Shown: positions 3,647 through 60,410 of the stretch, in pieces
Layout of the letters: every line of letters begins with the position of its first letter
Numbering within the stretch: the stretch's first letter is position 1
NCBI RefSeq assembly: GCF_023487995.1
Contig: NZ_JAMFKN010000012.1
Location: forward strand, 1 to 64,000
Direction of reading: 5' to 3'
Source: Thermohalobaculum sediminis
GTDB lineage: Bacteria > Pseudomonadota > Alphaproteobacteria > Rhodobacterales > Rhodobacteraceae
DNA length: 64,000 nt
Translations under genes and position numbers: made by a program
Notes under the pieces: model-generated
Database searches by the model: none
What the model was told of the DNA's origin: nothing
Seen by the model: only the letters and a program-made list of their open reading frames with translations

Positions 3647-3918
3647 GGCCCTGTCAGAAGGATCGTCCTTGAGCTGGGCCGGGCGTGTTCGTAGCGTTTC
3701 GGGATGAGCAAATTGAACCCGTTCAAGGGCTTCCAAAGCAGCCCAGCGATCATCCCCATGGCCGTGATGGTGTATATCCGGTTCCCTCTCTCGCTCAGGA
3801 ACGTCGATGACCTCCTGCATGAGCGCGGCATCGATGTCAGCCACGAGACGATCCGGTTCTGGTGGCATCGCTTCGGGCCAATCTTCGCGGCCGAGATCAG
3901 GCGCATTTCCGATCGGAT
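3647..3918 (+). mobile_element. IS6-family left-end fragment 2, in frame with the downstream porin
   Basis: The fragment begins with GGCCCTGTCAGAAGG (3647-3661), carries the usual leader and opens a transposase frame at ATG 3704. The first 66 or so residues (MSKLNPFKGFQSSPAIIPMA onward, to the helix ending AAEIRR) match the intact IS6 transposase at 5915; identity stops near 3910. The frame is not closed: it runs on through a short linker directly into the porin gene, giving one continuous 550-codon frame from 3704 to 5356. Confidence 0.8.
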
Positions 3919-3949
3919 TTGGCGCGCCAGACGCGTGATCTTCCGGTGC

Positions 3950-5356
3950 ATGCATGCAACGAGCCCGCTCACGCTTTGCTGCATGCTTGCAGCGCCGCCG
4001 CTCGCGTTGTCTGCTGCCCATGCTGGCGAGGCGTGCCATGTCGCGGTGGGCAAGCTGCGCTACGACGACGATATCGCGTGCTTCCGAGACCCGGCGAACC
4101 GTGATGGTCTTCTCGGCGCGATCAAGTTCATCTCCTTCGATGACGCGGGGCGGATGTTTCTCAGCCTCGGCGGCGGCGTCCGCCAGCGCTACGAATACAC
4201 TCAGGACCCGCTGTTCGGCGCCGGTCCGCAAGACGAGGCGGGTGTCTGGCTGCAACGTTACACGATTCACGGCGACCTGCACCTCGGACCCCATCTCCGG
4301 ATCTTCGGCGAGCTTTCGAGCGGCCTCGAGACGGGGCGCGAAGGCGGGCCGAGCCCCGTCGATGAAAACCGGCTCGCGCTGCAGAACGGATTGGTCGATC
4401 TTTCCGTCGCGCCAACCGACGCGTCGGACCTGACCCTACGCATCGGCCGGCAGGAACTCCGCTACGGTGCGAGCCGACTCATCGACGCGCGTGATGGGCA
4501 AAACGTGCGCCGCACCTTCGATGCGGCTCGCACGATCCTCGAGGTTCCTGATTGGCGCATCGATGGCTTCGCCGGCTCGCCACGCGCGACTCGGCCGGGA
4601 GTATTCGACGACGCATGGAACGACGATCAGATCCTGTGGGGCGTCTATGCGACCGGAGCCTCCGAACGCCTCCCTGCTGGCGCGCTCGATCTTTACTATC
4701 TCGGCTTTCACGATGATGCGGCGGCCTACGTGCAGGGCACGGCGGAGGAGGAGCGTCACACAGTTGGCGCCCGCTTCTGGGGCGCAATCGGTGCGTGGGA
4801 CTGGGACTGGGAGGCCGTCTACCAGTTCGGATCCTTCGGCCGGGGCGACATCGCCGCATGGTTCGTCGCTTCGGACACTGGATTTAGACTCGCGGATGTC
4901 CCGTGGCGACCCCGCGTTGCCCTGAGCGCCAACATAGCCAGTGGCGATGCGGACCCGTCCGATCCCGATCTCGGGACCTTCAACCCGCTCTTCCCGAGGG
5001 GCGACCTCTTCTCCGAGGCTCCCATCCTGGGGCCGCGCAATTTCTTCAACTTCCGCCCATTTCTGATCATCCATCCGACCGACAGATGGTCTCTGACAAC
5101 CGATGTGAACTTCTTCTGGCGGATGAAGACCAAGGACGGCGTCTACTCGCCGGGCGGGCAGATCGTTCGGGCGCCGAACGGCAGCGGCGAGCGCTTTGTT
5201 GGGTCTGCCATATCCATGAAATCAAGCTACGAGATCGTCGAAGACCTGGCCTTCACAGCGAAGTACACACACTTCTTCGCCGGTGATTTCATCCGAGCGA
5301 CCGGCCCCGCAAACGACACCGACTTCGTGGAACTGACTCTTGAGTGGTGGTTCTGA
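3950..5356 (+). CDS. Alginate-export (AlgE-like) outer-membrane porin
   Basis: I place the start at ATG 3950 because the next residues form a signal peptide (hydrophobic LTLCCMLAAPPLALS, cleavage after AHA). The mature part of about 440 residues shows the pattern of the alginate_exp family: many short amphipathic strands, RIGRQELRYGASRLIDARDG (two-strand motif typical of the family), an NVRRTFD segment and a C-terminal strand ending in aromatic Trp-Phe, as outer-membrane barrels do. It probably forms a beta-barrel for export or uptake of an anionic polysaccharide or small acidic compound. No convincing ribosome-binding site precedes 3950; an in-frame GTG lies at 3935, and the frame is continuous with the IS6 transposase start at 3704, so expression may depend on the IS leader. 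No alginate genes are nearby. Confidence 0.8.
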   Translation: MHATSPLTLCCMLAAPPLALSAAHAGEACHVAVGKLRYDDDIACFRDPANRDGLLGAIKFISFDDAGRMFLSLGGGVRQRYEYTQDPLFGAGPQDEAGVWLQRYTIHGDLHLGPHLRIFGELSSGLETGREGGPSPVDENRLALQNGLVDLSVAPTDASDLTLRIGRQELRYGASRLIDARDGQNVRRTFDAARTILEVPDWRIDGFAGSPRATRPGVFDDAWNDDQILWGVYATGASERLPAGALDLYYLGFHDDAAAYVQGTAEEERHTVGARFWGAIGAWDWDWEAVYQFGSFGRGDIAAWFVASDTGFRLADVPWRPRVALSANIASGDADPSDPDLGTFNPLFPRGDLFSEAPILGPRNFFNFRPFLIIHPTDRWSLTTDVNFFWRMKTKDGVYSPGGQIVRAPNGSGERFVGSAISMKSSYEIVEDLAFTAKYTHFFAGDFIRATGPANDTDFVELTLEWWF

Positions 5357-5856: not shown

Positions 5857-6673
5857 GGACACTGTCAGAAACTTCCGGCTTGAGCCAGACGGGGCGGGTT
5901 CATAGCGTCCCGGGATGAGCAAATCGAACCCGTTCAAGGGCTTCCAAAGCAGCCCGGAGATCATACGCCTGGCCGTGATGATGTATATTCGCTTCCCGCT
6001 CTCGCTGCGGAACGTCGAAGACTTTCTGCATGAGCGCGGCGTCGACGTGAGCCACGAGACAATCCGTTTCTGGTGGCATCGGTTCGGCCCAATCTTCGCG
6101 GCCAAGATCCGGCGAAAGCGCGCCGACCGGATGCGTGCTTTCTCGAACTGGCGCTGGCACGTGGACGAGGTGTTCGTGAAGATCAGCGGAGAGCGGCATT
6201 ACCGTTGGCGGGCTGTCGACCATGAGGGCGAGGTTCTCGAGGCCGTCGTCACGAAACGTCGGAACAAGATGGCGGCATTGAAATTCCTCCGGAAATTGAT
6301 GCGCAGATACGGCCGGCCGGATGAGATCGTTACCGATCGCCTGCCGTCGTGCCGCGCAGCGCTGCGCGAGCTTGGTGGGTCGGATATTCAGTCTACCGGG
6401 CGCTGGTTGAACAACCGTGTTGAGAACTCACACCTGCCACTTCGACGACGGGAACGAGCGATCCTCCGCTTCCGGCGGATACGAAGTTTGCAGAAGCTCG
6501 CCGCTGTCCACGCCTCCGTCTCGAACCACTTCAATCAGGAACGCAGCCTTTCAAGCCGGCACATGTTCAAGGTCAACAGAACCGCCGCACTCGAGGAGTG
6601 GCGCAAGCTCGGCGCAGCCTGAAGGCCGACGTTGACAGCCAATCTGAGACTGGTTCGCATTGGTCTGATGGTG
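5857..6673 (+). mobile_element. IS6-family insertion sequence with a full transposase gene
   Basis: The left end GGACACTGTCAGAA lies at 5857-5870. A degenerate inverted copy, TCTGATGGTGTGG, lies at about 6662-6674 and could be the right end; the same bases also start the adjoining IS1111-type element, so this end may have been rebuilt. The neighbourhood of the right end (GAGACTGGTTCGCATT) recurs next to the inverted IS6 remnant at 15.4 kb, which supports it being part of the element. I could not find an 8-bp target duplication. Confidence 0.65.
5915..6622 (+). CDS. IS6-family DDE transposase, full length
   Basis: The 235-residue protein has the usual IS6 length. It begins with the helix-turn-helix region (residues 14-60, including SHETIRFWWHRFGP) and continues into the DDE nuclease: Asp84 in WHVDEVFVKI, Asp141 in EIVTDRLP and Glu170 in NNRVENSH. 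The C-terminal basic stretch RERAILRFRRIRSLQKLAAV is also typical. All catalytic residues are present, so the enzyme could be active and could act on the four related left ends in the window. Expression presumably comes from the short leader inside the left end. Confidence 0.93.
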   Translation: MSKSNPFKGFQSSPEIIRLAVMMYIRFPLSLRNVEDFLHERGVDVSHETIRFWWHRFGPIFAAKIRRKRADRMRAFSNWRWHVDEVFVKISGERHYRWRAVDHEGEVLEAVVTKRRNKMAALKFLRKLMRRYGRPDEIVTDRLPSCRAALRELGGSDIQSTGRWLNNRVENSHLPLRRRERAILRFRRIRSLQKLAAVHASVSNHFNQERSLSSRHMFKVNRTAALEEWRKLGAA

Positions 6674-6752: not shown

Positions 6753-7775
6753 ATGGAGATTACAACACTCGGGATCGATCTGGCCAAGTCTGTCTTCCAG
6801 CTACATGGCGTTGATCGGAATGGCACCATTGTGCTGCAGAAGAAGGTTCGGCGAGGCGCGCTGCTCGCCGTTCTGGGCCAGCTTGAGCCCTGCCTGATCG
6901 GCATAGAATCCTGTCCGACGTCACACTTCTGGGCGCGGGAAATTGCGGCGCTTGGCCACGAGGTCCGGCTAATTCCGCCGGCTTACGTGAAGCCCTACGT
7001 GAAGCGGCAGAAGAACGACGCGGCGGATGCCGAGGCGATCTGTGAAGCCGTGACCCGTCCGAACATGCGCTTCGTGCCGGTGAAGACCGAGGAGCAGCAG
7101 AGTATCCTGGCCCTGCACCGGTCACGCGATCTGCTGATGCGCCAGAGAACCATGATCCTCAATGCCATCCGTGCTCACCTGGCCGAGTTCGGGATCATCG
7201 CCGCGCAGGGTCCGCGGAAGGTGGCCGAGCTTGTGCGGCGCCTGAGCGATCCGGATGATCTGTGTCTCCCGGAGGTCGCCCGATCCGCCCTTCTGGCCTT
7301 AGGGGCTCAGCTTGAGAGCCTGGCCGAAGAGATCAGCAACCTCGAGCGACAGCTGATGAGCTGGCACCGAAAGAGCTTCGCAAGCCAGCGGCTCGAGACG
7401 ATCCCCGTCGTCGGCGTTATCACCGCCACGGCGCTCGCCGCCAGCGTGCCTGATCCTTCCGTCTTTCGGTCCGGCCGACAGTTCGCGGCCTGGCTCGGGC
7501 TCGTCCCCCGACAGAACTCATCGGGCGGCAAGGAGCGACTGGGACCGGTCTCCAAGATGGGCAATGGCTATCTGCGCCGCCTGCTCGTCGTCGGCGCCAC
7601 CTCGGTGACACGAAGAGCGCCAACCATCAACACCCGAACCGGCGCCTGGGTGCGATCGCTCCTCGAACGCAAGCCACCCCGGCTCGTCACCGTCGCGATC
7701 GCCAACAAGACCGCTCGGACCGCATGGGCGCTGCTGATCCGGGGTGAAAGCTACAAGGCCCCGACCGCGGCCTGA
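6753..7775 (+). CDS. IS110-family transposase (DEDD recombinase) A
   Basis: The 340-residue recombinase has an N-terminal RuvC-like domain with the tetrad Asp9 (GIDLAK), Glu52 (GIESC), Asp89 and Asp92 (KNDAADAE), then a long helical region, then the C-terminal Tnp2 domain with IPVVGVITATALAASV and the serine-bearing RQNSSGGKERLGP segment. Recent work on the family shows that the RuvC tetrad and the C-terminal serine form a composite active site guided by a bridge RNA. GGAGG lies a few bases before the ATG. Length and motifs are intact, so activity is plausible. Confidence 0.93.
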   Translation: MEITTLGIDLAKSVFQLHGVDRNGTIVLQKKVRRGALLAVLGQLEPCLIGIESCPTSHFWAREIAALGHEVRLIPPAYVKPYVKRQKNDAADAEAICEAVTRPNMRFVPVKTEEQQSILALHRSRDLLMRQRTMILNAIRAHLAEFGIIAAQGPRKVAELVRRLSDPDDLCLPEVARSALLALGAQLESLAEEISNLERQLMSWHRKSFASQRLETIPVVGVITATALAASVPDPSVFRSGRQFAAWLGLVPRQNSSGGKERLGPVSKMGNGYLRRLLVVGATSVTRRAPTINTRTGAWVRSLLERKPPRLVTVAIANKTARTAWALLIRGESYKAPTAA

Positions 7776-8035
7776 GATTAGACTAGGAAACGCGGCACCG
7801 CAGGCCGCCGCGACAGGATGCAAGGACAGACGTGAGTGATGATGATCGAACGGGACCGCTGCCGGGACACCCCGAGGTGCTGTCAGGGCGTCGAAGCTCG
7901 GTGGTCTGATTGGGACCCTGCACGCGGACTTCATTAGGGCCAGCGGTCGAGTGCGCCGCGTGAACAGGCCGGACACATGACCGCTCCCCGCTGCGATCGA
8001 CACTCACTCAACCGAACCCTTGCACAACCGGAGCC
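7776..8035 (+). ncRNA. Candidate bridge-RNA region in the right end of IS element A
   Basis: These 260 bases hold no plausible gene. They contain several short complementary segments that could fold, for example GCGGCACC with the following GCCGC, and GACACC opposite GGTG..GTC around 7870-7895. In IS1111-type elements this position encodes the bridge RNA that selects target and donor. No covariance or expression evidence is available here; the call rests on element layout. Confidence 0.35.
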
Positions 8036-9480: not shown

Positions 9481-10386
9481 TCATGAGCTTGCCCGCTCGA
9501 ACCATGCCGGCATCGCTTCCGCGACACGCCGCACCGGCGCGTCGGCAGCGAGCCCGGATGCGATGCGCGCCGACCATCGGATCGGGATGCCCTGCCCGGC
9601 CAGCGGCGTTGCGACGAGCGAGCCCGCCGCGAGCTCGCGGGTCACGCCCCACCGGCTGAGGATCGACACGCCCGCGCGGGCCTTGATGAGTTCGCAGACC
9701 GCATCGACCGAGCCGAGGTTTCGCTTGCGCACCGGCATCGTGCCATCGGCGGACCAGAGCCGCTCCGACTCGAAGCCGGCGCGCGCCTCGAGCGAATAGG
9801 TGAGGTAGGTCTCGGCGTCGAAATCCGCGGCCCTCACGCTCGCCCGACCGTCGAACCGATGGCCCGGCCAGACGATCGCGGCGAGGTCGTCGTCGAAGAG
9901 CGCGATCGCGTCGGCGGGCGACGCGTCCCGCGCTGCAGGGACGAGCGCGATGTCGAGCCGCCCCTCGGCAAGCTGGCGAAGCGTCGACGCCATGGTGCCG
10001 GGCTCGATCTCGATCTCGATATCCGGGTGCTGCACCGTGAAGACCGCGAGGAAGCCCGGCAGCCAGTGATAGGCGTTGTAGTCGCAGACCGCGAGACGCA
10101 CGATGTGACGGACGCCCTGCGACGATGCCGCGGCGGCGCGCTCGGCAAGCTCGATCCGGTCGATCACGTGCTCGGCCGTCTCGGTGAGGATCTCGGCCGC
10201 GGCAGACGGGCGCAACTGCCGGCCAACCTTCGCGAAGAGGATGACGCCCAGACGCCGCTCCGCCTCGCGCAGCCGGTGGGTCAGAGCCGATTGCGTGAGG
10301 CCCAGCCTCTCGGCGGCCGCGCTCAGCGTCCTCGCCTCGCGGATGGCGACAAGCATCTGCAGATGGGCAAGAGAGAGCGCCGGCAT
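9481..10386 (-). CDS. LysR-family transcriptional regulator of the adjacent D-amino acid operon
   Basis: The 301-residue protein has the N-terminal winged helix-turn-helix of LysR regulators (residues 4-62, LSAAAERLGLTQSALTHRLR) and a periplasmic-binding-protein-like effector domain (about 90-295, with the usual VRLAVCDYNAYHWLP and DIALVPA pieces). It is transcribed divergently from the five-gene operon starting at 10507, the classical arrangement for a LysR regulator and its target. The effector is unknown; a pathway intermediate such as an N-carbamoyl or D-amino acid would fit the context but is inference. Confidence 0.93.
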   Translation of the reverse strand: MPALSLAHLQMLVAIREARTLSAAAERLGLTQSALTHRLREAERRLGVILFAKVGRQLRPSAAAEILTETAEHVIDRIELAERAAAASSQGVRHIVRLAVCDYNAYHWLPGFLAVFTVQHPDIEIEIEPGTMASTLRQLAEGRLDIALVPAARDASPADAIALFDDDLAAIVWPGHRFDGRASVRAADFDAETYLTYSLEARAGFESERLWSADGTMPVRKRNLGSVDAVCELIKARAGVSILSRWGVTRELAAGSLVATPLAGQGIPIRWSARIASGLAADAPVRRVAEAMPAWFERASS

Positions 10387-10417: not shown

Positions 10418-10506
10418 TTATTGAAATTGGTTTCAGGCGCGGTCAAGCGATAGCGTCATGAGATCCGATCGGGGAGAAGGTCTCCGATCTCGTGAAGAGG
10501 CCGCCC

Positions 10507-11376
10507 ATGTTCTCCACCATTGCTCTGCATCCCGATTTCGGTGTCGAGGTCCACGGCGTCGATCTCGCGACACTCGACCGCGAGGCGTTCGGCGCAATCC
10601 GCGCGCTCTTCGAGGAGCACTCGCTCCTCCTCTTCCGCGGGCAAGAACTCGACGAGGCGAGCCATCGCCGGGTCGCCGAGCTCTTCGGCCCGCTCGAGGA
10701 CCTGCGCGGCGCGGTCATAGGCACGCCGGTCGAGCGGCCGATGGTCTCGAACCGGTCGGCGACCGGCGCGCTGGTCGGCGACCCGGAGATGCGACTTCTC
10801 GATCTCAAGGCCAACTTCCTCTGGCATGCGGACAGCACCTTCCTGCCGACGCCCGCGATCTCGAACGTGCTGGTGGGCTATGTCATCCCGCCCTCGGGCG
10901 GGGGCGCGACCGAGGTCGTCTCGACCCGGGCGGGGTGGGAACGGCTCCCGCAGGCGCTGCGCGAGCGGGTGCGCGACAAGGTCTTCATCCATCGCTTCTC
11001 GCATTCGCGCAGCCTCGTCGACCCGCGGCTCGGCGCGCTGCCGCATTACACGAAATACCCCGACACGCCCTGGCGCGCGGTCTGGACCAACCCGGTCAAC
11101 GGGCGCGAGGCACTGCTCTTCGGCGCCCATGTCGCGGGCGTCGCGGGGATGGACCAGGCCGAGGGAGCCGCGCTGATCGACGAGCTCATGGCCGCCTTGA
11201 CGGCGCGCGACGCCATCTATTCCCATGACTGGCGGCCGGGCGACGTTCTCGTCTGGGACCAGCGCGCGACGCTCCACCGCGGGACGCCTTGGAACTATGA
11301 CGAGGAAAGGACGCTCGCGAGCTTCGTCTCCTCGGCGGTCGAGGCGGACGGCATCGAGAGCGTGCGGGTGCACTGA
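10507..11376 (+). CDS. TauD/TfdA-family Fe(II)/2-oxoglutarate dioxygenase
   Basis: The product (289 aa from ATG 10507; AAGAGG seven bases upstream supports this start over the GTG at 10492) is a double-stranded beta-helix dioxygenase of the TauD/TfdA family. The iron ligands are His107 and Asp109 in WHADSTF and His257 in LHRGTPW, and Arg268 in DEERTL is the usual 2-oxoglutarate-binding Arg. Such enzymes couple decarboxylation of 2-oxoglutarate to hydroxylation of a substrate. Here it leads an operon with a cyclic-ureide hydrolase, a D-carbamoylase and a D-aminotransferase, so the substrate may be a hydantoin, a ureide or an N-alkylated precursor. The substrate cannot be read from sequence. 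Confidence 0.9.
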   Translation: MFSTIALHPDFGVEVHGVDLATLDREAFGAIRALFEEHSLLLFRGQELDEASHRRVAELFGPLEDLRGAVIGTPVERPMVSNRSATGALVGDPEMRLLDLKANFLWHADSTFLPTPAISNVLVGYVIPPSGGGATEVVSTRAGWERLPQALRERVRDKVFIHRFSHSRSLVDPRLGALPHYTKYPDTPWRAVWTNPVNGREALLFGAHVAGVAGMDQAEGAALIDELMAALTARDAIYSHDWRPGDVLVWDQRATLHRGTPWNYDEERTLASFVSSAVEADGIESVRVH

Positions 11377-11389
11377 GAGGGAAAGACGA

Positions 11390-11692
11390 ATGGCCTGGCT
11401 GATCGTCAGCAACGACAACGAATATGGCCCGCGCATCCGGGCGGACCAGGCGGTCATGGACGCGCACTGGGCCTACGAGCTCGCCAACACCGACGTGATC
11501 CTCTGCGCGGGCAGCCTGCGCACGGATGACGGGAATACCAAGACCGGCAGCGTGCTGCTGCTCGACCTCCCGACGCGCGCGGATGCCGAGGCCTTCTTCG
11601 CGAACGACCCGGCGACCAAGGCCGGCATGCGGGGCGAGACCGAGATCCGCTGGCTGAATGTCGCGATCCTCGACCGCGAGGAGCAGCCGTGA
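11390..11692 (+). CDS. YciI-like small protein
   Basis: The 100-residue protein starts at ATG 11390, 14 bases after the dioxygenase gene, with a GAGGGAAAGA ribosome-binding stretch. It has the YciI/dimeric alpha-beta barrel pattern: MAWLIVSND at the start, a conserved His (DAHWAYELA), a central GSLRTDDGNTKTGSVLLLD strand region and FFANDPATKAGM near the end. YciI-like proteins often act as small accessory enzymes or muconolactone-isomerase-like folds in catabolic operons. Its stop overlaps the GTG start of the next gene, so it is translationally coupled. The function in this operon is unknown. Confidence 0.85.
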   Translation: MAWLIVSNDNEYGPRIRADQAVMDAHWAYELANTDVILCAGSLRTDDGNTKTGSVLLLDLPTRADAEAFFANDPATKAGMRGETEIRWLNVAILDREEQP

Positions 11693-12597
11693 CCGGGCCG
11701 ACGCGCGACCTCATCGGCTACGCGGACGCGCCACCGCCGGCGGACTGGCCGGGCGGAGCGAGGGTCGCGGTCAACTTCTGCATCAATTTCGAGGAGGGCG
11801 GCGAGCGCTCGATCCTCGAGGGCGACGCGCAATCCGAGACGCGGATCTCGGACGTCGTCGTGCCTCCGGTGATCGGCGGGCGCGACCTCAATATCGAGCA
11901 TTCCTACGAATACGGATCGCGGGTCGGCTATTGGCGCCTCCTGCGGGCCTTCATGGAGCGCGGGCTGCCCGCCACCGTCAACCTCGTCGGCCGGGCGGGA
12001 GAGCTGACGCCGCAGCCCCTGCAAGCCATGATCGACGCGGGCTTCGACCTCCATCCCCACGGCTGGCGGTGGATCGACTATGCAAAGCTCTCGCGCGCCG
12101 AGGAGGCCGCGATGATCGCGAAATCCATCGCCCAGGTCGAACGCCTGACCGGCGAGCGGCCGCTCGGCTATTACGCGGGCCTTCCCTCGATCAACACCTA
12201 CGCGCTCGCGGCCGAGGCGGGGTTCCTCTATTCCTCGGACGTCTACAACGACGACCTGCCCTACTGGTCGCCCGACCATCCGAGGCTTCTGATGATCCCC
12301 TACTCGCTCGACACGAACGACAGCCGCTTTGCCCGCGACGGAGGTGGCTACGTGCTGGGGGAACAGTTCACGCGCTATGTCTGCGACACTTTCGACCAGC
12401 TCTATGCCGAGGGGGGCGAGCGGCCGGCGATGATGTCGGTCGGGCTCCACGCGCGCCTGATCGGGCGGCCGGGGCGGATCGGGGCGCTGCACCGGATCCT
12501 CGACCACATCGCGGGCCACGACCGTGTCTGGATCGCCCGGCGCGACGACATCGCGCGCCACTGGCAGGCGCGTCATCCCGACGAAAGGGCTCGCTGA
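11689..12597 (+). CDS. PuuE-like allantoinase / polysaccharide-deacetylase-family amidohydrolase
   Basis: The 302-residue protein starts at GTG 11689, overlapping the preceding stop. It belongs to the NodB-fold polysaccharide deacetylase superfamily, in the PuuE branch whose founder opens the hydantoin ring of allantoin: FEEGGERSILEGD near residue 35, NIEHSYEYGSRVGYWRLL, a DLHPHGWRWIDYAKL metal-ligand region near 120, and GYYAGLPSINT. No other purine-degradation gene (uricase, OHCU decarboxylase, ureidoglycolate enzymes) is present, and the next gene is a D-carbamoylase, so I infer that it opens a 5-substituted hydantoin or related cyclic ureide rather than allantoin. The family call is strong; the substrate is inference. 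Confidence 0.88.
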   Translation: MTGPTRDLIGYADAPPPADWPGGARVAVNFCINFEEGGERSILEGDAQSETRISDVVVPPVIGGRDLNIEHSYEYGSRVGYWRLLRAFMERGLPATVNLVGRAGELTPQPLQAMIDAGFDLHPHGWRWIDYAKLSRAEEAAMIAKSIAQVERLTGERPLGYYAGLPSINTYALAAEAGFLYSSDVYNDDLPYWSPDHPRLLMIPYSLDTNDSRFARDGGGYVLGEQFTRYVCDTFDQLYAEGGERPAMMSVGLHARLIGRPGRIGALHRILDHIAGHDRVWIARRDDIARHWQARHPDERAR

Positions 12598-13556
12598 TGG
12601 AAGCGCTCGTGACCGGCGTGGCCCAGATGGGGCCGATCCAGAAGATCGACAGCCGCGCTGCGGTCGTGAGGCGGATGCTCGCGCTCCTCGCCGAGGCGAA
12701 GGCGCGCGGCTGCCGGTTCGTGGTCTTCCCCGAGCTTGCGCTCACCACCTTCTTCCCCCGCTGGGTCTACGAGCCGGGCGAGCCTGCGCTCGACGCCTGG
12801 TTCGAGGACGCCATGCCGGGCCCCGAGACCCGGCCTCTGTTCGATGCCGCGGCGGCGGCCGGGATCGGCTTCTACCTCGGCTATGCCGAGAAGGCCGGAA
12901 ACCGCCGCTTCAACACCGCGATCCTTGTCGACGGGACAGGTCGGATCGTCGGCAAGTATCGCAAGGTCCACCTTCCGGGCCATGCCGAGCCCGACCCGAG
13001 CCGCCTCGGCGAGCATCTCGAGAAGCGATACTTCCATGTGGGCGACCTCGGCTTCCCGGTCTTCGAGACCATGGGCGCGAAGATCGGCATGTGCATCTGC
13101 AACGACCGCCGCTGGCCCGAGACATACCGCGTCATGGGATTGCAGGGGGTGGAACTGATTGCCCTCGGCTACAACACGCCGACCGGCCTCGGCGAGCCCT
13201 ACCAGGCTGCGGCGCAGGCCAACATGCACAACGAGCTTTCGCTGCGCGCGGGCGCCTATCAGAACGCTACCTGGGTCGCCGCGGCGGCGAAATGCGGGGT
13301 CGAGGGCGGCTACCCGATGATCGGCCAGTCGATGATCGTATCGCCCCTTGGCGAGGTCGTCGCCATGGCCGCGACGCTGGAAGACGAACTCATCACCGCA
13401 CGCTGCGACATGAAGCTGGCAGCCTATGCCCGGACCGAGATCTTCAACTTCGCGCGCCACCGCCGGCCGGAGGCCTATGCGCTTATCACGGACAGGGTGG
13501 GCGCGGGCGAACCGGTCGTGCCATCGCGCGCGCAGATGGGCCTCGACGATGCCTGA
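12597..13556 (+). CDS. N-carbamoyl-D-amino acid hydrolase (D-carbamoylase), nitrilase superfamily
   Basis: The 319-residue protein resembles Agrobacterium D-carbamoylase throughout, including FVVFPELALTTFFPRW, GKYRKVHLPGH and CNDRRWPE. The catalytic triad is Glu46, Lys123 and Cys168. The reaction is hydrolysis of an N-carbamoyl-D-amino acid to the D-amino acid, CO2 and ammonia. Several segments near the substrate (HLEKRYF, GYNTP) are shared with the characterised enzymes, so the specificity call is better than the general nitrilase call. The start overlaps the preceding stop (ATGA), and the stop overlaps the next start, which indicates tight coupling. Confidence 0.93.
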   Translation: MEALVTGVAQMGPIQKIDSRAAVVRRMLALLAEAKARGCRFVVFPELALTTFFPRWVYEPGEPALDAWFEDAMPGPETRPLFDAAAAAGIGFYLGYAEKAGNRRFNTAILVDGTGRIVGKYRKVHLPGHAEPDPSRLGEHLEKRYFHVGDLGFPVFETMGAKIGMCICNDRRWPETYRVMGLQGVELIALGYNTPTGLGEPYQAAAQANMHNELSLRAGAYQNATWVAAAAKCGVEGGYPMIGQSMIVSPLGEVVAMAATLEDELITARCDMKLAAYARTEIFNFARHRRPEAYALITDRVGAGEPVVPSRAQMGLDDA

Positions 13557-14403
13557 GACCGTCTATCTCAACGGGAGGTTCCTGCACGCGGCCGAAGCGA
13601 AGGTCTCGGTCTTCGACCGCGGCCTTCTCTTCGCCGATGCGATCTACGAGGTCTGCGGGGTGATCGACGGCAAGCTGATCGACTTTCCGGGCCACATGGC
13701 GCGGCTAGACCGCTCTCTCAGCGAAATGGGGATGACCTGTCCGCTCGACCACGACGGCATCCTCGATGTGATGCGCCGCCTCGTCGCGGCCGAAGGTGTG
13801 ACCGAGGGCCTCGTCTACATGCAGTTCACCCGTGGCAGCTCTGGCGACCGCGACTTTCTGCCCAGCGGGGAGGAGGCACCCACCGTCTTCGGCTTCGCCC
13901 AGCACAAGTCCGAAGCCTTCCGCGCCGAGATCGAGAACGGCATTCATATGGTCTCGGCCCCCGATCAGCGCTGGCGGAGGCGCGACATCAAGACCGTGGG
14001 GCTTATGGGCAGCGTCTTCGCCAAGATGGCCGCGCGCGATGCCGGTGGCCAAGAGGCCCTGCTCCACGAGGACGGGATCGTGACCGAGGGTGCCGCGACG
14101 AGCTTCTTCTTCGTCCGCGACGGCCGGCTGGTCACGCGCCCCCTGTCGGACTCCATCCTGCACGGATGCACCCGTAAGGCGCTGATCGCGCTCGTCGCCG
14201 AGCATGGCCTCGCGGTCGATGAACGGCTCTTCACGCTCGCCGAGGCAAAGGCGGCGGAAGAGGCCTTCCTCACCGGCGCCTCGACCTATGTCTGCCCGGT
14301 TCTGTCGATCGACGCGGCGACATTCGGCGACGGCCGTCCGGGATCTCTGACCCGCCGACTTCAGACGATCTATGTCGATCTCGCCCGCGAGAGCGCGATC
14401 TAA
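13549..14403 (+). CDS. D-amino acid aminotransferase (class IV PLP enzyme)
   Basis: The 284-residue protein is a fold-type IV aminotransferase. Lys148 in RRRDIKTVGLM is the PLP lysine, in the RDIK context of D-alanine aminotransferases; VFDRGLLFADAIYEV near residue 21 and TEGAATSFFFV near 185 are also typical. It moves the amino group of a D-amino acid to a keto acid, which would yield the alpha-keto acid from the D-amino acid released by the carbamoylase. The ATG at 13549 lies inside the end of the carbamoylase gene (8-base overlap). Branched-chain or 4-amino-4-deoxychorismate activity cannot be fully excluded, but the operon context favours D-amino acids. Confidence 0.9.
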   Translation: MPETVYLNGRFLHAAEAKVSVFDRGLLFADAIYEVCGVIDGKLIDFPGHMARLDRSLSEMGMTCPLDHDGILDVMRRLVAAEGVTEGLVYMQFTRGSSGDRDFLPSGEEAPTVFGFAQHKSEAFRAEIENGIHMVSAPDQRWRRRDIKTVGLMGSVFAKMAARDAGGQEALLHEDGIVTEGAATSFFFVRDGRLVTRPLSDSILHGCTRKALIALVAEHGLAVDERLFTLAEAKAAEEAFLTGASTYVCPVLSIDAATFGDGRPGSLTRRLQTIYVDLARESAI

Positions 14404-14487: not shown

Positions 14488-14803
14488 GGCAATGTCAAAG
14501 GAACTTGGCTTGAGGCGGAATAGCCGCCTCCCTGCCCTCGTGGCATGAGCAAACCCAACCCCTTCCGCTACTTCAAAACGTCACCCGAGATCATCCGCCT
14601 GGCGGTCATGCTCTACGTCCGCTTCCCGCTGTCGCTGCGGAATGTTGAAGACCTGCTGCACGAGCGCGGCATCGACATCAGCCACGAGACGATCCGGTTC
14701 TGGTGGCAGAGGTTCGGGCCGATGTTCGCGGCGGAAATCCGAAAGCGACGGATCGAGGGCATGCGCTCGAGCCGCTGGCGATGGCATCTCGATGAGATGT
14801 TCG
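14488..14803 (+). mobile_element. IS6-family left-end fragment 4
   Basis: GGCAATGTCAAAGGAAC at 14488 is the left repeat; the leader and the transposase start (ATG 14545) follow. About 87 codons are preserved, through the helix-turn-helix to WRWHLDEMF, ending at the first catalytic Asp. At 14804 a second element with its own IS6-like end begins, cutting the gene. Among the four truncated left ends this is the longest. Confidence 0.8.
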
Positions 14804-14966
14804 GGCACTGTCAGATTAACCGGCGGGGGCCATCTTTCCCCTCCCTCGCTTGTGCGAGAGGACCATGAAACGCCTAGCTGTAAAGCAAAAAGCTTTCCAG
14901 AACGCCGCCAGCCAACCTCTCCAAGCCAGCGTCAGGCTATCAGATCAGTTTAATTTGACAATGCCG
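14804..14966. mobile_element. 163-bp MITE-like element with IS6-type inverted repeats
   Basis: GGCACTGTCAGATTAA at 14804-14819 is matched by TTAATTTGACAATGCC at 14951-14966, an inverted repeat with 13 of 16 positions matching. The interior has no transposase and is AT-richer than the flanks. It cuts the IS6 fragment on its left and the DUF3299 gene on its right. No 8-bp target duplication is visible, so it may be the scar of a deletion between two ends rather than a simple insertion. Confidence 0.55.
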
Positions 14967-15305
14967 CGCCGACTTGCCGCCACCGCGGTGAACGAGGCGC
15001 TGATCGGTCAGGAGATCCGCATTCCCGGATATGTCCTGCCGCTCGAGATGAAGGACGGCAAGGCAGTGGAGTTCCTGCTCGTTCCCACGGTCGGCGCCTG
15101 CATCCACACGCCCCCGCCGCCCGCCAACCAGCTGATCCACGTGGTCCATCCCGACGGCGTCGAAATCAGGGGCCTCTATGACCCCGTCTGGGTCACCGGA
15201 GTCATGGAGTCCGACCAGTCGGTGCAGGACGTTCGCTACGCCGACGGACAGGCAGAGGTCGCCGTCAGCTATGCGATGCGTTCCGCTTCGGTCGTGCCAT
15301 ATTGA
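14967..15305 (+). pseudogene. 5'-truncated DUF3299 protein
   Basis: The frame encodes about 110 residues with the features of DUF3299: GQEIRIPGYVLPLE, VEFLLVPTVGACIHTPPPP and GLYDPVWVTGVM, conserved in small periplasmic proteins of proteobacteria. The signal peptide and N-terminal part are missing because the 163-bp element lies directly upstream; an ATG at 14850 inside that element is in frame and could still start translation. The stop overlaps another IS6-like end (TTGACAGTGGC at 15302). I regard it as a broken gene. Confidence 0.65.
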
Positions 15306-15394
15306 CAGTGGCGTTCGGTTTCATGGACGGAACAGTGCTATCGATGCATGGCCGTCGGAAGCCCAAAAGTGGCTAGGCGGTGCTGGCAGACGAA

Positions 15395-15664
15395 TGCGAA
15401 CCAGTCTCAATTCTGCCGGGGAAGAGGTCTTTCAAGCAACGCCGAGTTGACGCCACTCGGCAAGTGCGGCGGCGCGGCGCGGCTCGGCTTGAAGACGTCC
15501 CTGCGGGAAAGGCTGCGTTCCCGGTTGGAGTGATTGTGGACGGAGGCATAAACGGCGGCGAAGATCTGCAGACTTCGTACCAGCCGGAAGCCTAGCGTGA
15601 CCGGTTGCCGTCGCTTCAAGAACGAAAAGAACAAAATTCTCCTCACGACAAGTGGCCCGATCAT
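15395..15664 (-). mobile_element. IS6-family right-end fragment, inverted
   Basis: Read on the minus strand, this stretch encodes FRLVRSLQIFAAVYASVHNH and further residues that match the C-terminus of the IS6 transposase at 5915 (FRRIRSLQKLAAVHASVSNH). Downstream of it, GAGACTGGTTCGCATTCGTCTG matches the bases after the intact transposase gene near 6650. The frame has been eroded; the N-terminal two thirds and the left end are missing. It is the only IS6 copy in the opposite orientation. Confidence 0.7.
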
Positions 15665-48156: not shown

Positions 48157-49149
48157 TCAGCTTGTGCCGCCCGGCACGATCTCTCCGTCGAGGGTCACGC
48201 GGGGCGGCGCGGGCACGTCGTCCGCAGCGGCGATCCAGGCGGCGGCGGCGCGGCCGATCTCGAAGCGGGGCGAGCGGAAGGTGGTGAGCGGGATGGGCAG
48301 CGCCTCGCCCAGTTCGAGGCCGTTGAAGCCTGCGAGCGCGACGCCGCCGGGCACCTCGACGCCGTGCGCGAGGCAGTGCATCAGCCCGCCCGCCGCCATG
48401 TCATCGTTCGAGAAGAAGATCGCGTCGATCCGCTCGCCGCAGGCCAGCAGATCGGCCGTCAGCCGCCGGCCCAGCAGCATCGAGGAGCGCTCGGCCGGGG
48501 CAAGCTCGCGCACCACCCGCGCCCCCGCGTCGCGGACCGCCTCAATGAAGCCGTCGCGGCGCTTTCGGGCGCGCAGGTCGTGGTCGAGGAAGGCCCCGGC
48601 ATAGCCGAAGCGGCGGTAGCCCCTTGCCAGCAGATGCCGCGCCATCTCGGCGCCCACGGCCCGGTGCGAGAGGCCGAAGCACGCGGCGACCGGCGTGCCG
48701 TCGGTGTCCATGATCTCGGCCACCCGCGCGCCGCAGCCGGCCAGAAGGCGGCGCGTGCCATCGCTGTGCTCGAGCCCGGTCACGATCATCCCCGCGGGGC
48801 GCCAGCTCAGCAGTTCGCGCACCACCCGTTCCTCGGTCTCGGCACAATACTCGGTCACGCCGAAGACGGGCGTCATGCCACCGGGCTCGAGCCCCTGCCC
48901 GATGCCGGCGAGGACCTCGGGAAAGACCGCGTTGAACAGCGTCGGCAGGACGACGGCGACGAGGGGGGTGCGCTCGCTCGCCAATGCGCCGGCGAGGCGG
49001 TTCGGCGTGTAGCCGACTGCCGCCGCCGCGGCCTCGACCTGCCGGCGCGTCTCGTCCGAGACGTAGCCCCGGCCGCTGATCGCGCGCGAGACCGTCATCT
49101 CGCTGACCCCGGCGAGGCGCGCGACATCGGCGAGTGTGGGACTGCTCAC
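48157..49149 (-). CDS. LacI-family transcriptional regulator of the threonate operon
   Basis: The 330-residue protein starts at GTG 49149. The N-terminal helix-turn-helix and hinge (TLADVARLAGVSEMTVSRAI and GYTPNRLAGALASERT) are classical for LacI/GalR members, followed by the periplasmic-binding-protein-like domain (PLVAVVLPTLFNAVFPEVLA to the end). It resembles the GntR-type subgroup that responds to sugar acids. It is divergent from ltnD, and two operator-like dyads lie in between, so it very probably represses the L-threonate operon and is released by threonate or an intermediate. Confidence 0.93.
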   Translation of the reverse strand: MSSPTLADVARLAGVSEMTVSRAISGRGYVSDETRRQVEAAAAAVGYTPNRLAGALASERTPLVAVVLPTLFNAVFPEVLAGIGQGLEPGGMTPVFGVTEYCAETEERVVRELLSWRPAGMIVTGLEHSDGTRRLLAGCGARVAEIMDTDGTPVAACFGLSHRAVGAEMARHLLARGYRRFGYAGAFLDHDLRARKRRDGFIEAVRDAGARVVRELAPAERSSMLLGRRLTADLLACGERIDAIFFSNDDMAAGGLMHCLAHGVEVPGGVALAGFNGLELGEALPIPLTTFRSPRFEIGRAAAAWIAAADDVPAPPRVTLDGEIVPGGTS

Positions 49150-49211
49150 CCTCTCAAGCCCTTGCCCTTCCTGCAGGAACCGCAACCGGCACGGTTGGCG
49201 GAGTGACCGAT

Positions 49212-49227
49212 ATGTTAGCGTAAACAT
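49212..49227. promoter_or_regulatory. LacI-type operator O1
   Basis: ATGTTAGCGTAAACAT is an imperfect dyad of two 8-base halves with the central CG of LacI/GalR sites. It lies 30 bases (centre to centre) from O2, near three helical turns, so two repressor dimers could sit on the same face. Confidence 0.6.
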
Positions 49228-49234
49228 AAATCGA

Positions 49235-49263
49235 TTGACAAGTGATAGCGCTAACACAATCAT
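49235..49263 (+). promoter_or_regulatory. Promoter of the threonate operon
   Basis: A perfect -35 box TTGACA lies at 49235-49240; after a 17-base spacer, AATCAT at 49258-49263 matches four of six -10 positions. The operator O2 fills the spacer, so repressor binding would exclude RNA polymerase. The ltnD start follows 54 bases after the -10 box. Confidence 0.6.
49242..49257. promoter_or_regulatory. LacI-type operator O2
   Basis: GTGATAGCGCTAACAC is a dyad with 7 of 8 half-site positions matching around the central AGCGCT. It coincides with the spacer of the ltnD promoter. Confidence 0.7.
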
Positions 49264-49316
49264 TCGACGCGCCGGGGCCGCCCGGCCGCGCCACCACGCA
49301 TGGGAGGGATTGCCGC

Positions 49317-50207
49317 ATGGAAGCTGTTCTGGTCGGTCTTGGCTCGATGGGCTTCGGCATGGCCTGCTCGCTCATCCGCGCGGGCATTCCGACGCTTGGC
49401 GTCGACATCAGCCCCGCGCGGGAGGCGGCGCTGCGCGAGCGCGGCGGCGCCGGCGGGCCGCGCGAGGCGGCCATCGCCGCGGCCGATGCGGTCGTGATCG
49501 TCGTGGTCAACGCCGCGCAGTCCGACGCGGTCCTGTTCGGCGAGGGCGGCATCGCCGCGGGGATGAAGCCGGGCGCCGTGGTGGTCAACTGCACGACCGT
49601 CCCGCCCGACCACGCGCGGGCGAGCGCGTCGCGGCTGGCGGCGCGCGGCATCCACTACCTCGACGCCCCGATCTCGGGTGGCGCGGCACGGGCGGCGGCG
49701 GGGCGGCTCGGCGTCATGGCCTCGGGCACGGAGGCCGCCTTCGCGGCAGCGCGGCCCGCGCTCGACGCGATGGCCGAGACGGTGTTCGAGCTGGGCGACG
49801 AGGCCGGCGCGGGCTCGGCGATGAAGGCGGTCAACCAGCTTCTGGCCGGCGTCCACATCGCGGCCGCAGCCGAGGCCATCACCTTCGGCATGAAGCTGGG
49901 CCTCGACCCGGCGCGAACGGTCGAGGTCATCTCGAAATGCGCGGGCACCTCGTGGATGTTCGAGAACCGCGGGCCGCACATCGCGCGCGGCGACTACACG
50001 CCCCATTCGGCGGTCGACATCTTCGTGAAGGACCTTGGCATCGTGTCGGACATTGCGCGCGCCGCGCGCTTCTCGGCGCCGGTCGCCTCGGCGGCGCTGC
50101 AACAGTTCCTCGCGGCCTCGGGGGCGGGCCATGGCGCCGAGGACGACGCCGCGGTCGCCAAGGTCTATGCCCGGAACGCGGGCCTCGAACTGCCGGGAGG
50201 GGGGTGA
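49317..50207 (+). CDS. ltnD: L-threonate dehydrogenase
   Basis: The 296-residue protein is a beta-hydroxyacid dehydrogenase: GLGSMGFGMA (NAD motif), DAPISGGAARAAAG (substrate loop) and catalytic Lys170 in GSAMKAVNQLLAG. In operons with otnI, otnK and otnC this family member oxidises L-threonate to 2-oxo-tetronate. The start is ATG 49317 behind GGGAGGGA, and the gene is the first of four with overlapping ends. The related D-erythronate pathway uses a different (SDR) dehydrogenase, so L-threonate is favoured. Confidence 0.92.
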   Translation: MEAVLVGLGSMGFGMACSLIRAGIPTLGVDISPAREAALRERGGAGGPREAAIAAADAVVIVVVNAAQSDAVLFGEGGIAAGMKPGAVVVNCTTVPPDHARASASRLAARGIHYLDAPISGGAARAAAGRLGVMASGTEAAFAAARPALDAMAETVFELGDEAGAGSAMKAVNQLLAGVHIAAAAEAITFGMKLGLDPARTVEVISKCAGTSWMFENRGPHIARGDYTPHSAVDIFVKDLGIVSDIARAARFSAPVASAALQQFLAASGAGHGAEDDAAVAKVYARNAGLELPGGG

Positions 50208-51454
50208 TGCTGCTGGGCTGCATCGGCGACGATTTCACCGGCTCGTCGGATCTCGCCAACACGCTGGCCAAGGGTGGCATGCGCGCCGTGCAGTACTGCG
50301 GCGTCCCGTCGGGGCCGGCGGCGCCGGGCGTCGAGGCAGGCGTGGTCGCGCTGAAGTCGCGCACGATCCCGCCGGCCCAGGCGGTCGCGCAATCTCTGGC
50401 GGCGCTGGAATGGCTGCGCGCGCAAGGGTGCAGGCAGTTCTTCTTCAAGTACTGCTCGACCTTCGATTCGCGGCCCGAGGGGAACATCGGCCCGGTGGCC
50501 GACGCGCTGATCGCGGCACTGGGCACCGACTGCGCGATCGTCTGCCCGGCATTCCCCGCCGCCGGACGCTCGGTCTACCAGGGGCATCTGTTCGTCAATG
50601 ACCGCCTGCTGAGCGAGTCGGGCATGGAGAGCCATCCGCTGACGCCGATGACCGACCCCGACATCCGGCGCTGGCTCGCGCCGCAGACGGTCCACCCCGT
50701 GGGCCATGTCGGGGCGGCCTCGGTGCTGGCGGGCGCGGATGCGATCAGCGCCGCGCTGGCGGGGCAGCGCGCCGCGGGCCGCGTGCTGGTCGTGGTCGAT
50801 GCGATCCGGGACTCGGACCTGATGGCGATCGGCGAGGCCGCACGCGACCTTGCCCTGATCACCGGCGGCTCGGGTGTCGCGCTGGGCCTGCCTGCGAATT
50901 TCCGGCGCGAGGGGCTGATCGCGGGCGCCGGCATGGCCTGGCACGGCATCGGCGGCCCCTGCGCGATCCTGTCGGGCTCGTGCTCGGCCGCCACGCGCGC
51001 GCAGGTCGCCCGCCACGCGCGCCACCACCCGGCAATGGAGATCCGTGCCGAGCGGGTGATGGCGGGCGAGACGACGCCCGAGACGGTGGCCCGCTTCCTG
51101 CTGTCGCACCCGGACGGGCTGCCGCTCGCCTATTCCTCGGCCGATCCCGCGGCCGTGCGGGCGGCGCAGGAGAGCTTCGGGCGCGAGACGGTCGCGGCCG
51201 CGCTCGAGACGCTGCTTGCGCGCACGGCGTCGCTGGTCGTCGCGGCGGGCGTCACCCGCCTCGTCACCGCGGGGGGCGAGACCTCGGGCGCCGTGGTCGA
51301 GGGGCTGGGGCTCGACGCGCTGGAGATCGGGCCCGAGATCGACCCCGGCGTCCCCGCCCTCAGGGCCGGCGGGCTGGCGCTCGCGCTCAAGTCCGGCAAT
51401 TTCGGCGCCGAGGACTTCTTCGAGAAGGCCGCCCGCATGCTGGAGGCCGCATGA
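50207..51454 (+). CDS. otnK: 3-oxo-tetronate kinase (DUF1537 four-carbon acid sugar kinase)
   Basis: The 415-residue protein belongs to the DUF1537 kinase family: N-terminal MLLGCIGDDFTGSSDLANTL, substrate region FKYCSTFDSRPEGNIG, and the C-terminal nucleotide-binding VTAGGETSGAVVEGLGLDAL and ALKSGNFGAEDFF. It phosphorylates 3-oxo-tetronate at C4 with ATP. Its ATG overlaps the ltnD stop, and its own stop overlaps the otnC start. Confidence 0.93.
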   Translation: MLLGCIGDDFTGSSDLANTLAKGGMRAVQYCGVPSGPAAPGVEAGVVALKSRTIPPAQAVAQSLAALEWLRAQGCRQFFFKYCSTFDSRPEGNIGPVADALIAALGTDCAIVCPAFPAAGRSVYQGHLFVNDRLLSESGMESHPLTPMTDPDIRRWLAPQTVHPVGHVGAASVLAGADAISAALAGQRAAGRVLVVVDAIRDSDLMAIGEAARDLALITGGSGVALGLPANFRREGLIAGAGMAWHGIGGPCAILSGSCSAATRAQVARHARHHPAMEIRAERVMAGETTPETVARFLLSHPDGLPLAYSSADPAAVRAAQESFGRETVAAALETLLARTASLVVAAGVTRLVTAGGETSGAVVEGLGLDALEIGPEIDPGVPALRAGGLALALKSGNFGAEDFFEKAARMLEAA

Positions 51455-52104
51455 GCGCCGAGGCGAGGCTGCGCGAGCAGATCTGCGCGCTTGGCGCCTC
51501 GCTGTTCGGGCGCGGGCTGATCTGCGGCGCCTCGGGCAACCTGTCGGCGCGGCTGCCGGATGGGGGGCTGCTGGTCACGCCCACGGGAGCGAGCCTCGGC
51601 CGTCTTGACCCGGCGCGGCTGAGCCGGCTGGACCGGCATGGGCGCCTGCTCGATGGCGATGCGCCGACCAAGGAGATGGCGCTGCACGCGGCCTTCTACG
51701 AGACGCGCGGCGACAAGGCGGGGGCGGTGGCGCATCTGCATTCGACCCACGCGGTCGCCTGGTCGATGCTGCCGGGCACGGACCCCGACTGGCTGCTGCC
51801 GCCGCTCACGGCCTATTCGGTCATGCGGCTGGGCCGCGTCCGGCTGCTGCCCTATTTCCGTCCCGGCGACCCGGCGATGGGCGAGGCGGTGCGCAGCCTC
51901 GCCGGACGGCGCTCGGCGGTGGTGCTGGCCAATCACGGGCCGGTGGTCGCGGGCGCGGACCTCGAGGCGGCGGTGAACGCGATCGAGGAGCTCGAGGAGA
52001 CCGCGCGCCTTGCCCTCCTGACCCGCTCGACCGGTGCGGTCGGGCTGAACGAGGCCCAGATCCGCGACCTCGTCGCGACCTTTGGACTGGAGTGGGACGC
52101 ATGA
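51451..52104 (+). CDS. otnC: 3-oxo-tetronate 4-phosphate decarboxylase (class II aldolase fold)
   Basis: The 217-residue protein has the class II aldolase/adducin fold with GASGNLSARLPDGGLLVTPTG, catalytic Glu in PTKEMALH and the zinc ligands in VAHLHSTHAVAW plus ANHGPVVAG. In this pathway it decarboxylates 3-oxo-tetronate 4-phosphate to dihydroxyacetone phosphate. It overlaps both neighbours by ATGA junctions, so the operon is tightly coupled. Confidence 0.92.
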   Translation: MSAEARLREQICALGASLFGRGLICGASGNLSARLPDGGLLVTPTGASLGRLDPARLSRLDRHGRLLDGDAPTKEMALHAAFYETRGDKAGAVAHLHSTHAVAWSMLPGTDPDWLLPPLTAYSVMRLGRVRLLPYFRPGDPAMGEAVRSLAGRRSAVVLANHGPVVAGADLEAAVNAIEELEETARLALLTRSTGAVGLNEAQIRDLVATFGLEWDA

Positions 52105-52865
52105 TCCGGCTGTCCGCCAATCTCGGCTTTCTCTGGACCGACCTGCGGCTGCCGGACGCGATCCGCGCTGCGGCGGCGGCGGGCTTCGACGCGGTCGAGT
52201 TGCACTGGCCCTATGACGTGCCCGCGGCCGAGGTGCGGGGCGCGCTGGACGAGACGGGGCTGCCGGTGCTGTCGCTGAACACGCCGCGCGGCGATCCCGC
52301 GCGCGGCGAGAACGGGCTTGGCGCCCTGCCCGGCCGCGAGGCCGAGGCGCGGGCGGCGAGCGGGCAGGCCTTCGACTATGGCGCCGCGATCGGCGCGCGC
52401 CACGTCCATGTCATGGCGGGCGTGGCCGCGGGTCCCGCCGCGCATGACGCCTATCTCGACACCCTCGCCCATGCCGCCGAGCGTGCCCGGCGCGAACGGA
52501 TGGGCGTTCTAATCGAGCCGCTCAACCCGCGCGACGCGCCCGGCTACTTCCTCGCCGGCGCGGACCAGGCGGCCGGGATCATCGCGGCCCTGGGCCGGCC
52601 CGAGGTGCGGCTGATGTTCGACTGCTATCACCTGCAGATCCTCCACGGCGATCTCACGCGCCTTTTCCAGCGCCTCGCGCCGGTGACCGGGCATGTGCAG
52701 TTCGCGGGCGTCCCGGACCGCGGCGCGCCCGACGAGGGCGAGATCGCCTATGATCGCCTGCTGCCGGCGATCGCGGCGCTTGGCCATGACGGCTTCTTCG
52801 GCGCCGAATACCGCCCGCGCGGCGCGACGGGCGACGGCCTCGGCTGGATGCGCGTCTTCCGCTGA
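52101..52865 (+). CDS. otnI: 2-oxo-tetronate isomerase (hydroxypyruvate-isomerase family)
   Basis: The 254-residue TIM barrel has the metal/acid residues of the Hyi family in VLIEPLNPRDAPGYFL, MFDCYHLQILHGDL, GHVQFAGVPDRGAPDEGEI and FFGAEYRPRG. It converts 2-oxo-tetronate to 3-oxo-tetronate, the step between LtnD and OtnK. Hydroxypyruvate isomerase itself is similar, but the operon decides the assignment. It is the last gene of the operon; a GC-rich hairpin follows. Confidence 0.92.
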   Translation: MIRLSANLGFLWTDLRLPDAIRAAAAAGFDAVELHWPYDVPAAEVRGALDETGLPVLSLNTPRGDPARGENGLGALPGREAEARAASGQAFDYGAAIGARHVHVMAGVAAGPAAHDAYLDTLAHAAERARRERMGVLIEPLNPRDAPGYFLAGADQAAGIIAALGRPEVRLMFDCYHLQILHGDLTRLFQRLAPVTGHVQFAGVPDRGAPDEGEIAYDRLLPAIAALGHDGFFGAEYRPRGATGDGLGWMRVFR

Positions 52866-57090: not shown

Positions 57091-57238
57091 GCGCCCTCCG
57101 TCCTCCGGCCGGCGCGCGGGCGGGACGCCACCGCACTTCGAGCCCGGTCCTGCATTCGGTCACTCCCGCCGCCCAAGCGGCCGTCGCCGCCTGCTCCGCC
57201 GGGTCTGCCAGCGACCGCGCCGCAGGGCAAGCGCCGCG

Positions 57239-60330: not shown

Positions 60331-60363
60331 GCGGCGCGCTGACGGCCTGACTTCGGGTCGGTC

Positions 60364-60391: not shown

Positions 60392-60410
60392 CGCAATCTG
60401 CTTGACGGGG

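Follow-up and report, generated by a model that had tools for sequence, protein, structure and literature searches.

A PuuE-like hydrolase as a candidate hydantoinase in a probably mobile operon of Thermohalobaculum sediminis

The industrial production of D-amino acids rests on metal-dependent amidohydrolases and, to our knowledge, the natural substrates of hydantoinase gene clusters are poorly known. In classical clusters, such as those of Sulfitobacter dubius (locus L115, which also holds a racemase) and Aminobacter (L121), an N-carbamoyl-D-amino acid hydrolase (D-carbamoylase) accompanies a dihydropyrimidinase. The allantoinase PuuE, with a verified representative in Pseudomonas fluorescens (PDB 3cl6; family model TIGR03212), has relatives of the NodB fold that differ from it in activity: the part of PMC9304392 concerned with them describes the Pseudomonas putida imidase (AAY98498) and Aspergillus HxnM as PuuE-related enzymes opening cyclic imides beyond allantoin, and HP0310, a further PuuE relative, is reported inactive on allantoin in the part of PMC3084791 that deals with it. 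Here we analyze a predicted operon at positions 10507-14403 of a 64,000-nucleotide stretch of Thermohalobaculum sediminis DNA (contig NZ_JAMFKN010000012.1, positions 1 to 64,000; "the window"), which encodes a TauD-type dioxygenase, a small YciI-like protein, a PuuE-like NodB-fold hydrolase, a D-carbamoylase and a class IV transaminase of the D-amino acid subfamily (DAAT). The interpretation we favor, with modest confidence, is that this is a probably mobile unit breaking down a hydantoin-type cyclic ureide by way of the PuuE-like ring opener, the D-carbamoylase and the transaminase.

In the proposed route the PuuE-like enzyme would hydrolyze the ring by PuuE-like NodB-fold chemistry to yield an N-carbamoyl amino acid, from which the D-carbamoylase, following the chemistry of its family, would release the carbamoyl group in the form of CO2 and ammonia to give a D-amino acid, which the transaminase would convert to a 2-oxo acid. 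TauD and YciI make up a separable pair; they may oxidize the compound or trim it ahead of ring opening, a placement that is a guess, and the divergently encoded LysR protein is probably the substrate sensor. Only tentatively, and a little short of even confidence, do we extend this to the proposal that the clade of the PuuE-like protein constitutes a second hydantoinase family, unrelated to the first and of NodB fold, acting within an undescribed dioxygenase/YciI/D-carbamoylase/D-transaminase route that converts a natural hydantoin into a 2-oxo acid.

Of central importance is the relation of the PuuE-like protein to true allantoinases, from which an initial annotation of this DNA had set it apart as a replacement hydantoinase. 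In a 91-protein tree (midpoint-rooted, with an unsettled bootstrap and long branches in some rows) it does fall outside the group of the verified P. fluorescens enzyme, lying in a 24-row clade, with support of 100/98, apart from both 3cl6 and the host's second PuuE. At 17 positions the clade and the sequences taken as allantoinases differ in their prevailing residues, counted as those found in at least 85% of the 23 rows of the former and at least 80% of the 36 rows of the latter; three of these differences (Glu122>Asp, Trp163>Tyr and Met218>Ser) hold without exception in both sets, and the window protein agrees with its clade at 16 of the 17. On TIGR03212 it scores 374 bits against a curated cut-off of 424.6, and five further clade members score 358-380, so that all six clade proteins tested are under the cut-off, while five canonical PuuE proteins, the host's second copy included, all exceed it with 514-570. 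Homology to 3cl6 nevertheless extends over the full length (E 7e-95) and the PuuE core motifs are retained in the clade, while 3qbu, related to the NodB-fold cyclic imide hydrolases, is matched at only 3e-16. By the available sequence tests the protein is thus outside the allantoinase group.

The neighborhoods of the relatives point in the same direction. Scanning the PuuE-like protein against one genome per species gave at least 590 relatives, of which the best 80 were kept; neighbors of 22 clade loci and 64 others were counted by tblastn within 8 kb or up to the contig end, and at high-GC loci, where genes were called by a crude custom scorer with some wrong-strand calls, the neighbor clusters are approximate. 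Strict purine markers (OHCU decarboxylase, PuuD, ureidoglycolate lyase, allantoicase and ureidoglycine aminohydrolase) were found near 0 of the 22 clade loci, compared with 34 of the 64 others (Fisher p 1.8e-6, the loci being related); with xanthine dehydrogenase-type genes counted too, the figures become one (L153) and 36.

These counts bear on an unlikely alternative, in which allantoin is handled in mirror image: the PuuE-like protein would be an allantoinase, the D-carbamoylase would act on allantoate to give (R)-ureidoglycine, and the transaminase would yield oxalurate. By our own reasoning the three genes fit this scheme in order, since in formal terms allantoate belongs to the N-carbamoyl amino acids and ureidoglycine to the alpha-amino acids, and the retained core motifs would suit it as well. 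M20 genes of the allantoate amidohydrolase/carbamoylase family occur near 5 of the 22 clade loci, and genome G194 has a clade copy only, with xanthine dehydrogenase-type genes nearby; the want of strict purine markers and the scores below the PuuE cut-off argue the other way, and the scheme leaves TauD and YciI without a role. Moreover, the host already holds the canonical genes together: the PuuE copy on its contig C21 (545 bits on TIGR03212) adjoins a ureidoglycine aminohydrolase, a ureidoglycolate lyase and genes over the bhcB, bhcC and bhcD cut-offs, and contig C38 carries an OHCU decarboxylase along with another gene of the ureidoglycolate lyase family. An M20 carbamoylase of L017, used as query in a search without a control, gave no host match at E 1e-30. 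Given the set on C21, the host, to judge by its genes, needs no second allantoinase. That the window protein might be one was considered separately and set aside on the tree, the 17 positions, the TIGR03212 scores and the neighborhoods. The C21 region (about 433-450 kb; L122/L162) places allantoin breakdown beside the beta-hydroxyaspartate cycle for glyoxylate.

The D-carbamoylase carries the catalytic triad Glu46/Lys123/Cys168, at the positions first assigned to it, as well as His125, His140, Arg171, Arg172 and His211, so that all eight key residues, mapped by motif on the PDB alignment, are kept; the triad and the five recognition residues are those named for D-carbamoylases in the pertinent part of PMC3546935. 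Its top 11 matches in a PDB search are D-carbamoylases, at 344-366 bits, and the next scores 105. A D-carbamoylase lies near the clade protein at 4 of the 22 clade loci (L003, L013, L014 and L017, with the cut-off L004 a fifth), as against 2 of the 64 others, a weak association (p 0.035). In a tree of D-carbamoylases those of L013, L014 and L017 group together (94/93; with L055, 100/99), apart from those of the window and L003 (100/99), the deeper forks being less sure. The clade-adjacent D-carbamoylases therefore come from at least two lineages, and the clade protein and a D-carbamoylase seem to have been brought together more than once. In the L013, L014 and L017 clusters there are, in addition, a class III aminotransferase and a gene of the M20 carbamoylase family, and in those of L013 and L014 a dihydropyrimidinase-like gene. 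Beyond the latter, in the same clusters, is a second, diverged PuuE-type protein (L013:13707-14570 and L014:13641-14525; 40-43%), and the L013 genome has a separate canonical-type PuuE, 70% identical to the canonical one of the host. In Pantoea, too, a D-carbamoylase adjoins a D-amino acid transaminase.

The arrangement itself was recovered elsewhere, in L003 and L004, the two that head the 80 best relatives. All six genes, LysR included, occur in L003 in the same order and orientation as in the window, with protein identities of 68% for TauD, 84% for YciI, 75% for the PuuE-like protein, 80% for the D-carbamoylase, 71% for DAAT and 59% for LysR, and the 8-base overlap of the last two operon genes is present there as well. 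The 3 kb contig L004 holds TauD, YciI, the PuuE-like gene and the start of the D-carbamoylase, the contig ending inside this fourth gene (a 145-aa fragment, 68% identity; YciI 71%). The order TauD-YciI-PuuE-like-D-carbamoylase is thus common to L003 and L004, with 61-84% protein identity for complete genes, and, being kept in both, is more than chance. These copies also dispose of the idea that the operon is unique to the host genome.

The L003 record (CP051228.1) is one 4.9 Mb chromosome, its completeness not given. TIGR02033, which at E up to 1e-60 matches 7 of 14 control genomes, finds no D-hydantoinase in it; OHCU decarboxylase (4 of 14 controls match) and ureidoglycolate lyase (1 of 14 controls matches) were not found either, nor was there a second PuuE-type match at E 1e-40, the operon copy being the sole one. 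With neither a conventional hydantoinase nor the two purine steps that were tested, L003 leaves the PuuE-like enzyme as the best candidate to supply the D-carbamoylase substrate, and the missing purine steps are awkward for the allantoin scheme, though uptake of external allantoin is possible. Carbon-nitrogen hydrolases of all kinds number nine in L003 and eight in the host. As far as sequence can tell, these genome-wide absences are the strongest single point for the initially proposed idea, and together with the separateness of the clade they support its core, that of a NodB-fold hydantoinase; the clade is on this basis a candidate hydantoinase outside the amidohydrolase family. The L003 record bears the title Mesoflavibacter, but guanine plus cytosine (G+C) makes up 64% of the stretch, which would not fit that genus, and the label looks doubtful.

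A number of observations weigh against our interpretation. Among the matches listed there are only two complete operon copies and one partial copy, and 18 of the 22 clade loci are without a scored D-carbamoylase; 17 show none (L004 has the cut-off copy, and some contigs are short), so that the clade may have other roles too. L153, from the host's family (74%), belongs to the same four-row tree group as the window protein, yet has no operon: TauD, D-carbamoylase and DAAT were all not found within its 15 kb, and a second PuuE-type match was not found in its genome (G194) at E 1e-40. With molybdenum-hydroxylase genes of xanthine dehydrogenase type near its clade protein, there is room for an allantoin role in that organism. 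The operon has no transporter gene, the TauD-YciI pair occurs in L154 without the other operon genes, and TauD of L004 (L004:416-1276) reads Leu at the first iron-ligand His position, which is either a real loss or a sequence error. The host, moreover, carries two genes of the dihydropyrimidinase/D-hydantoinase type that exceed the TIGR02033 cut-off (588 and 520 bits). One of them, at 57239-58765 (-) in the window, also scores 680 bits on NF009941 (cut-off 647), and the operon's D-carbamoylase may serve both the PuuE-like and the ordinary hydantoinase routes. The claim that the PuuE-like enzyme replaces the hydantoinase therefore fits the operon, where the clade, the D-carbamoylase neighbors of at least two lineages and the L003 genome speak for it, but not necessarily this host.

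DAAT raises a further difficulty. Its initial designation as a D-amino acid aminotransferase is borne out by the subfamily model NF005209 (334 bits, over the cut-off of 320) and by Lys148, found where it had been placed, but not by the equivalog model TIGR01121, on which it scores 212 bits, under the cut-off of 277.45, nor by the residues aligned in the PDB alignment with Arg98/His100 of the Bacillus enzyme, which are Asp100/Asp102. That Arg/His pair we take to be the carboxylate site, and the substrate may accordingly not be an ordinary D-amino acid; the GDRDF motif of DAAT is found in the L003 copy too. Such an altered carboxylate site would suit a quite unlikely alternative, in which the PuuE-like protein opens a six-membered cyclic imide or dihydropyrimidine and the remaining enzymes process a ureido acid other than an N-carbamoyl-D-alpha-amino acid. 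The P. putida imidase and HxnM are ring openers that would accord with it, as would the class III aminotransferase that L013, L014 and L017 have close to the clade protein, but the D-carbamoylase retains the residues for N-carbamoyl-D-alpha-amino acids and finds its best PDB matches among D-carbamoylases.

The dioxygenase has His107, Asp109 and His257, presumably the HxD...H iron ligands, and Arg268, presumably the distal Arg, and YciI adjoins it in L003 (84%), L004 (71%) and L154 (63%). In the genome samples searched, TauD is matched at E 1e-100 in 2 of 385 genomes of the class (the host and G383, the latter with only TauD-YciI) and at E 1e-95 in 1 of 398 of the phylum, the host, and the PuuE-like protein at E 1e-115 in 5 of 295 genomes of the family, the four non-host ones lacking the remaining operon genes. 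At E 1e-60, TauD is matched in 32 of the 295 family genomes, at 35 places among the matches listed; for 19 of these places, with neighbors named by eye and from an annotated Ruegeria TM1040 stretch, an FAD-dependent oxidoreductase is present at 13 and a creatininase-like gene at 6. Relatives at about 50% identity adjoin creatininase, amidohydrolase and FAD oxidoreductase genes. These neighbors hint at nitrogen-ring chemistry or nitrogen compounds; as a guide to the substrate the TauD relatives were set aside, since their neighbors name none.

The five genes first described are genuine, their reading frames and families being borne out by the list of open reading frames and by Pfam, NCBIfam and PDB sequence matches (Table 1), and the last four do have overlapping starts and stops (by 4, 1 and 8 bases); the gap between TauD and YciI, initially given as 14 bases, is 13. 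TauD has an alternative GTG start at 10492. The initial annotation had omitted the divergent LysR gene and the insertion sequence (IS) remnants that flank both sides. No dihydropyrimidinase-type hydantoinase is present within the operon by reading frames or Pfam, the window's ring opener of that type being the distant one noted above, and a promoter and terminator scan gave nothing usable.

Table 1. Features of the operon, its borders and the distal hydantoin-type region of the window
Feature	Position	Strand	Basis or remark
Left IS6-type transposase copy	5862..6622	+	PF13610 in ORF 5915-6622; repeat D1
LysR-type regulator	9481..10386	-	Pfam HTH_1 and LysR_substrate; divergent also in L003 (59%)
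TauD/TfdA-type Fe(II)/2-oxoglutarate dioxygenase	10507..11376	+	PF02668, 168 bits; top PDB 5j92, 5bke
YciI-like small protein	11390..11692	+	PF03795, 46 bits
PuuE-like NodB-fold hydrolase, proposed ring opener	11689..12597	+	PF01522; TIGR03212 374 bits (<424.6); PDB 1z7a, 3cl6, 3s6o
N-carbamoyl-D-amino acid hydrolase (D-carbamoylase)	12597..13556	+	PF00795; PDB D-carbamoylases; key residues
Class IV transaminase, D-amino acid subfamily (DAAT)	13549..14403	+	PF01063; NF005209 334 bits; PDB D-AAT; Lys148
Right IS6-type remnants	14492..15613		Repeats D1, D2, I1, I2; ORF 14545-14868 without Pfam match
Racemase-like gene (Asp/Glu/hydantoin racemase look)	56398-57090		By eye; no NCBIfam match at E 1e-15
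TRAP transporter	59203-64000		Beside the hydantoinase at 57239-58765

Two IS110-type genes lie between the left IS6-type copy and the LysR gene, and G+C is 66-69% at 9-14 kb compared with 73-77% at 16-21 kb; the operon is probably a mobile catabolic unit. We consider it improbable that it is instead a patchwork, an IS-bounded island of unrelated pieces whose D-carbamoylase works chiefly for the ordinary hydantoinase and the racemase-like gene at 56-59 kb. The flanking IS remnants and the lone TauD-YciI pair of L154 are what a patchwork might show, and the 56-59 kb part is without a D-carbamoylase: no second one was found in the window, and the host genome has a single match at E 1e-70, that of the operon (one or two, at 57-60%, in each of four further members of the genus that were searched). 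A patchwork does not sit well, however, with the gene order shared with L003 and L004, the L003 chromosome without a TIGR02033 match, or the overlapping starts and stops. Elsewhere in the window, 55475-64000 looks like an ordinary hydantoin-type cluster without a carbamoylase, with a dihydrodipicolinate synthase-like frame (by eye); 48157-52865 is a four-carbon sugar acid cluster with a regulator-like gene (LacI type by eye), an L-threonate dehydrogenase (411 bits, above the cut-off of 350) and a gene resembling that of a 2-oxo-tetronate isomerase (264 bits, short of 325); and an alginate-export-type porin frame at 3704-5356 has a start resembling that of an IS6-type transposase, as if an IS remnant had been fused to it.

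Neither a PuuE-type hydantoinase nor this gene set appeared in the titles and abstract openings of the open-access literature searched. If confirmed by assay, the breakdown of a hydantoin-type ureide by this operon would be a new route, in which a relative of a purine enzyme takes the place of the usual metal-dependent hydantoinase, and a second family of ring openers would be a new tool. Clade proteins, whose best family is the PuuE model although they score below its cut-off, would then be likely annotation errors to be corrected, and an operon with its own regulator offers a direct handle on the identity of the natural compound.

Compared with allantoinase PuuE, the window protein shares full-length homology and core motifs, but differs in its separate clade, its score under the cut-off, its clade-specific positions and the lack of purine markers nearby. 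With the NodB-fold cyclic imide hydrolases, likened here by their description in the part of PMC9304392 already cited, it has the superfamily in common, although HxnM, according to that same part, works in a nicotinate pathway and is followed by an amide hydrolase. Paracoccus yeei plasmid L116 likewise combines a D-carbamoylase, a racemase-family gene, a Zn-dependent hydrolase and a polysaccharide deacetylase-family gene, with no dihydropyrimidinase in the stretch shown (the PLSDB gene tables being incomplete), but its PuuE-type protein is 47% identical and is not placed in the clade, its branch being long and its position unsure. In the hydantoin cluster of Sulfitobacter plasmid L114, two polysaccharide deacetylase-family proteins at 7067-8008 and 10424-11326 (26-28% to the window protein) flank a D-carbamoylase and a dihydropyrimidinase. 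With the classical clusters, finally, the operon shares the D-carbamoylase, and hence the predicted N-carbamoyl and D-amino acid steps, but its ring opener is of the NodB fold and not a dihydropyrimidinase, it has no racemase, and it adds a transaminase, TauD and YciI.

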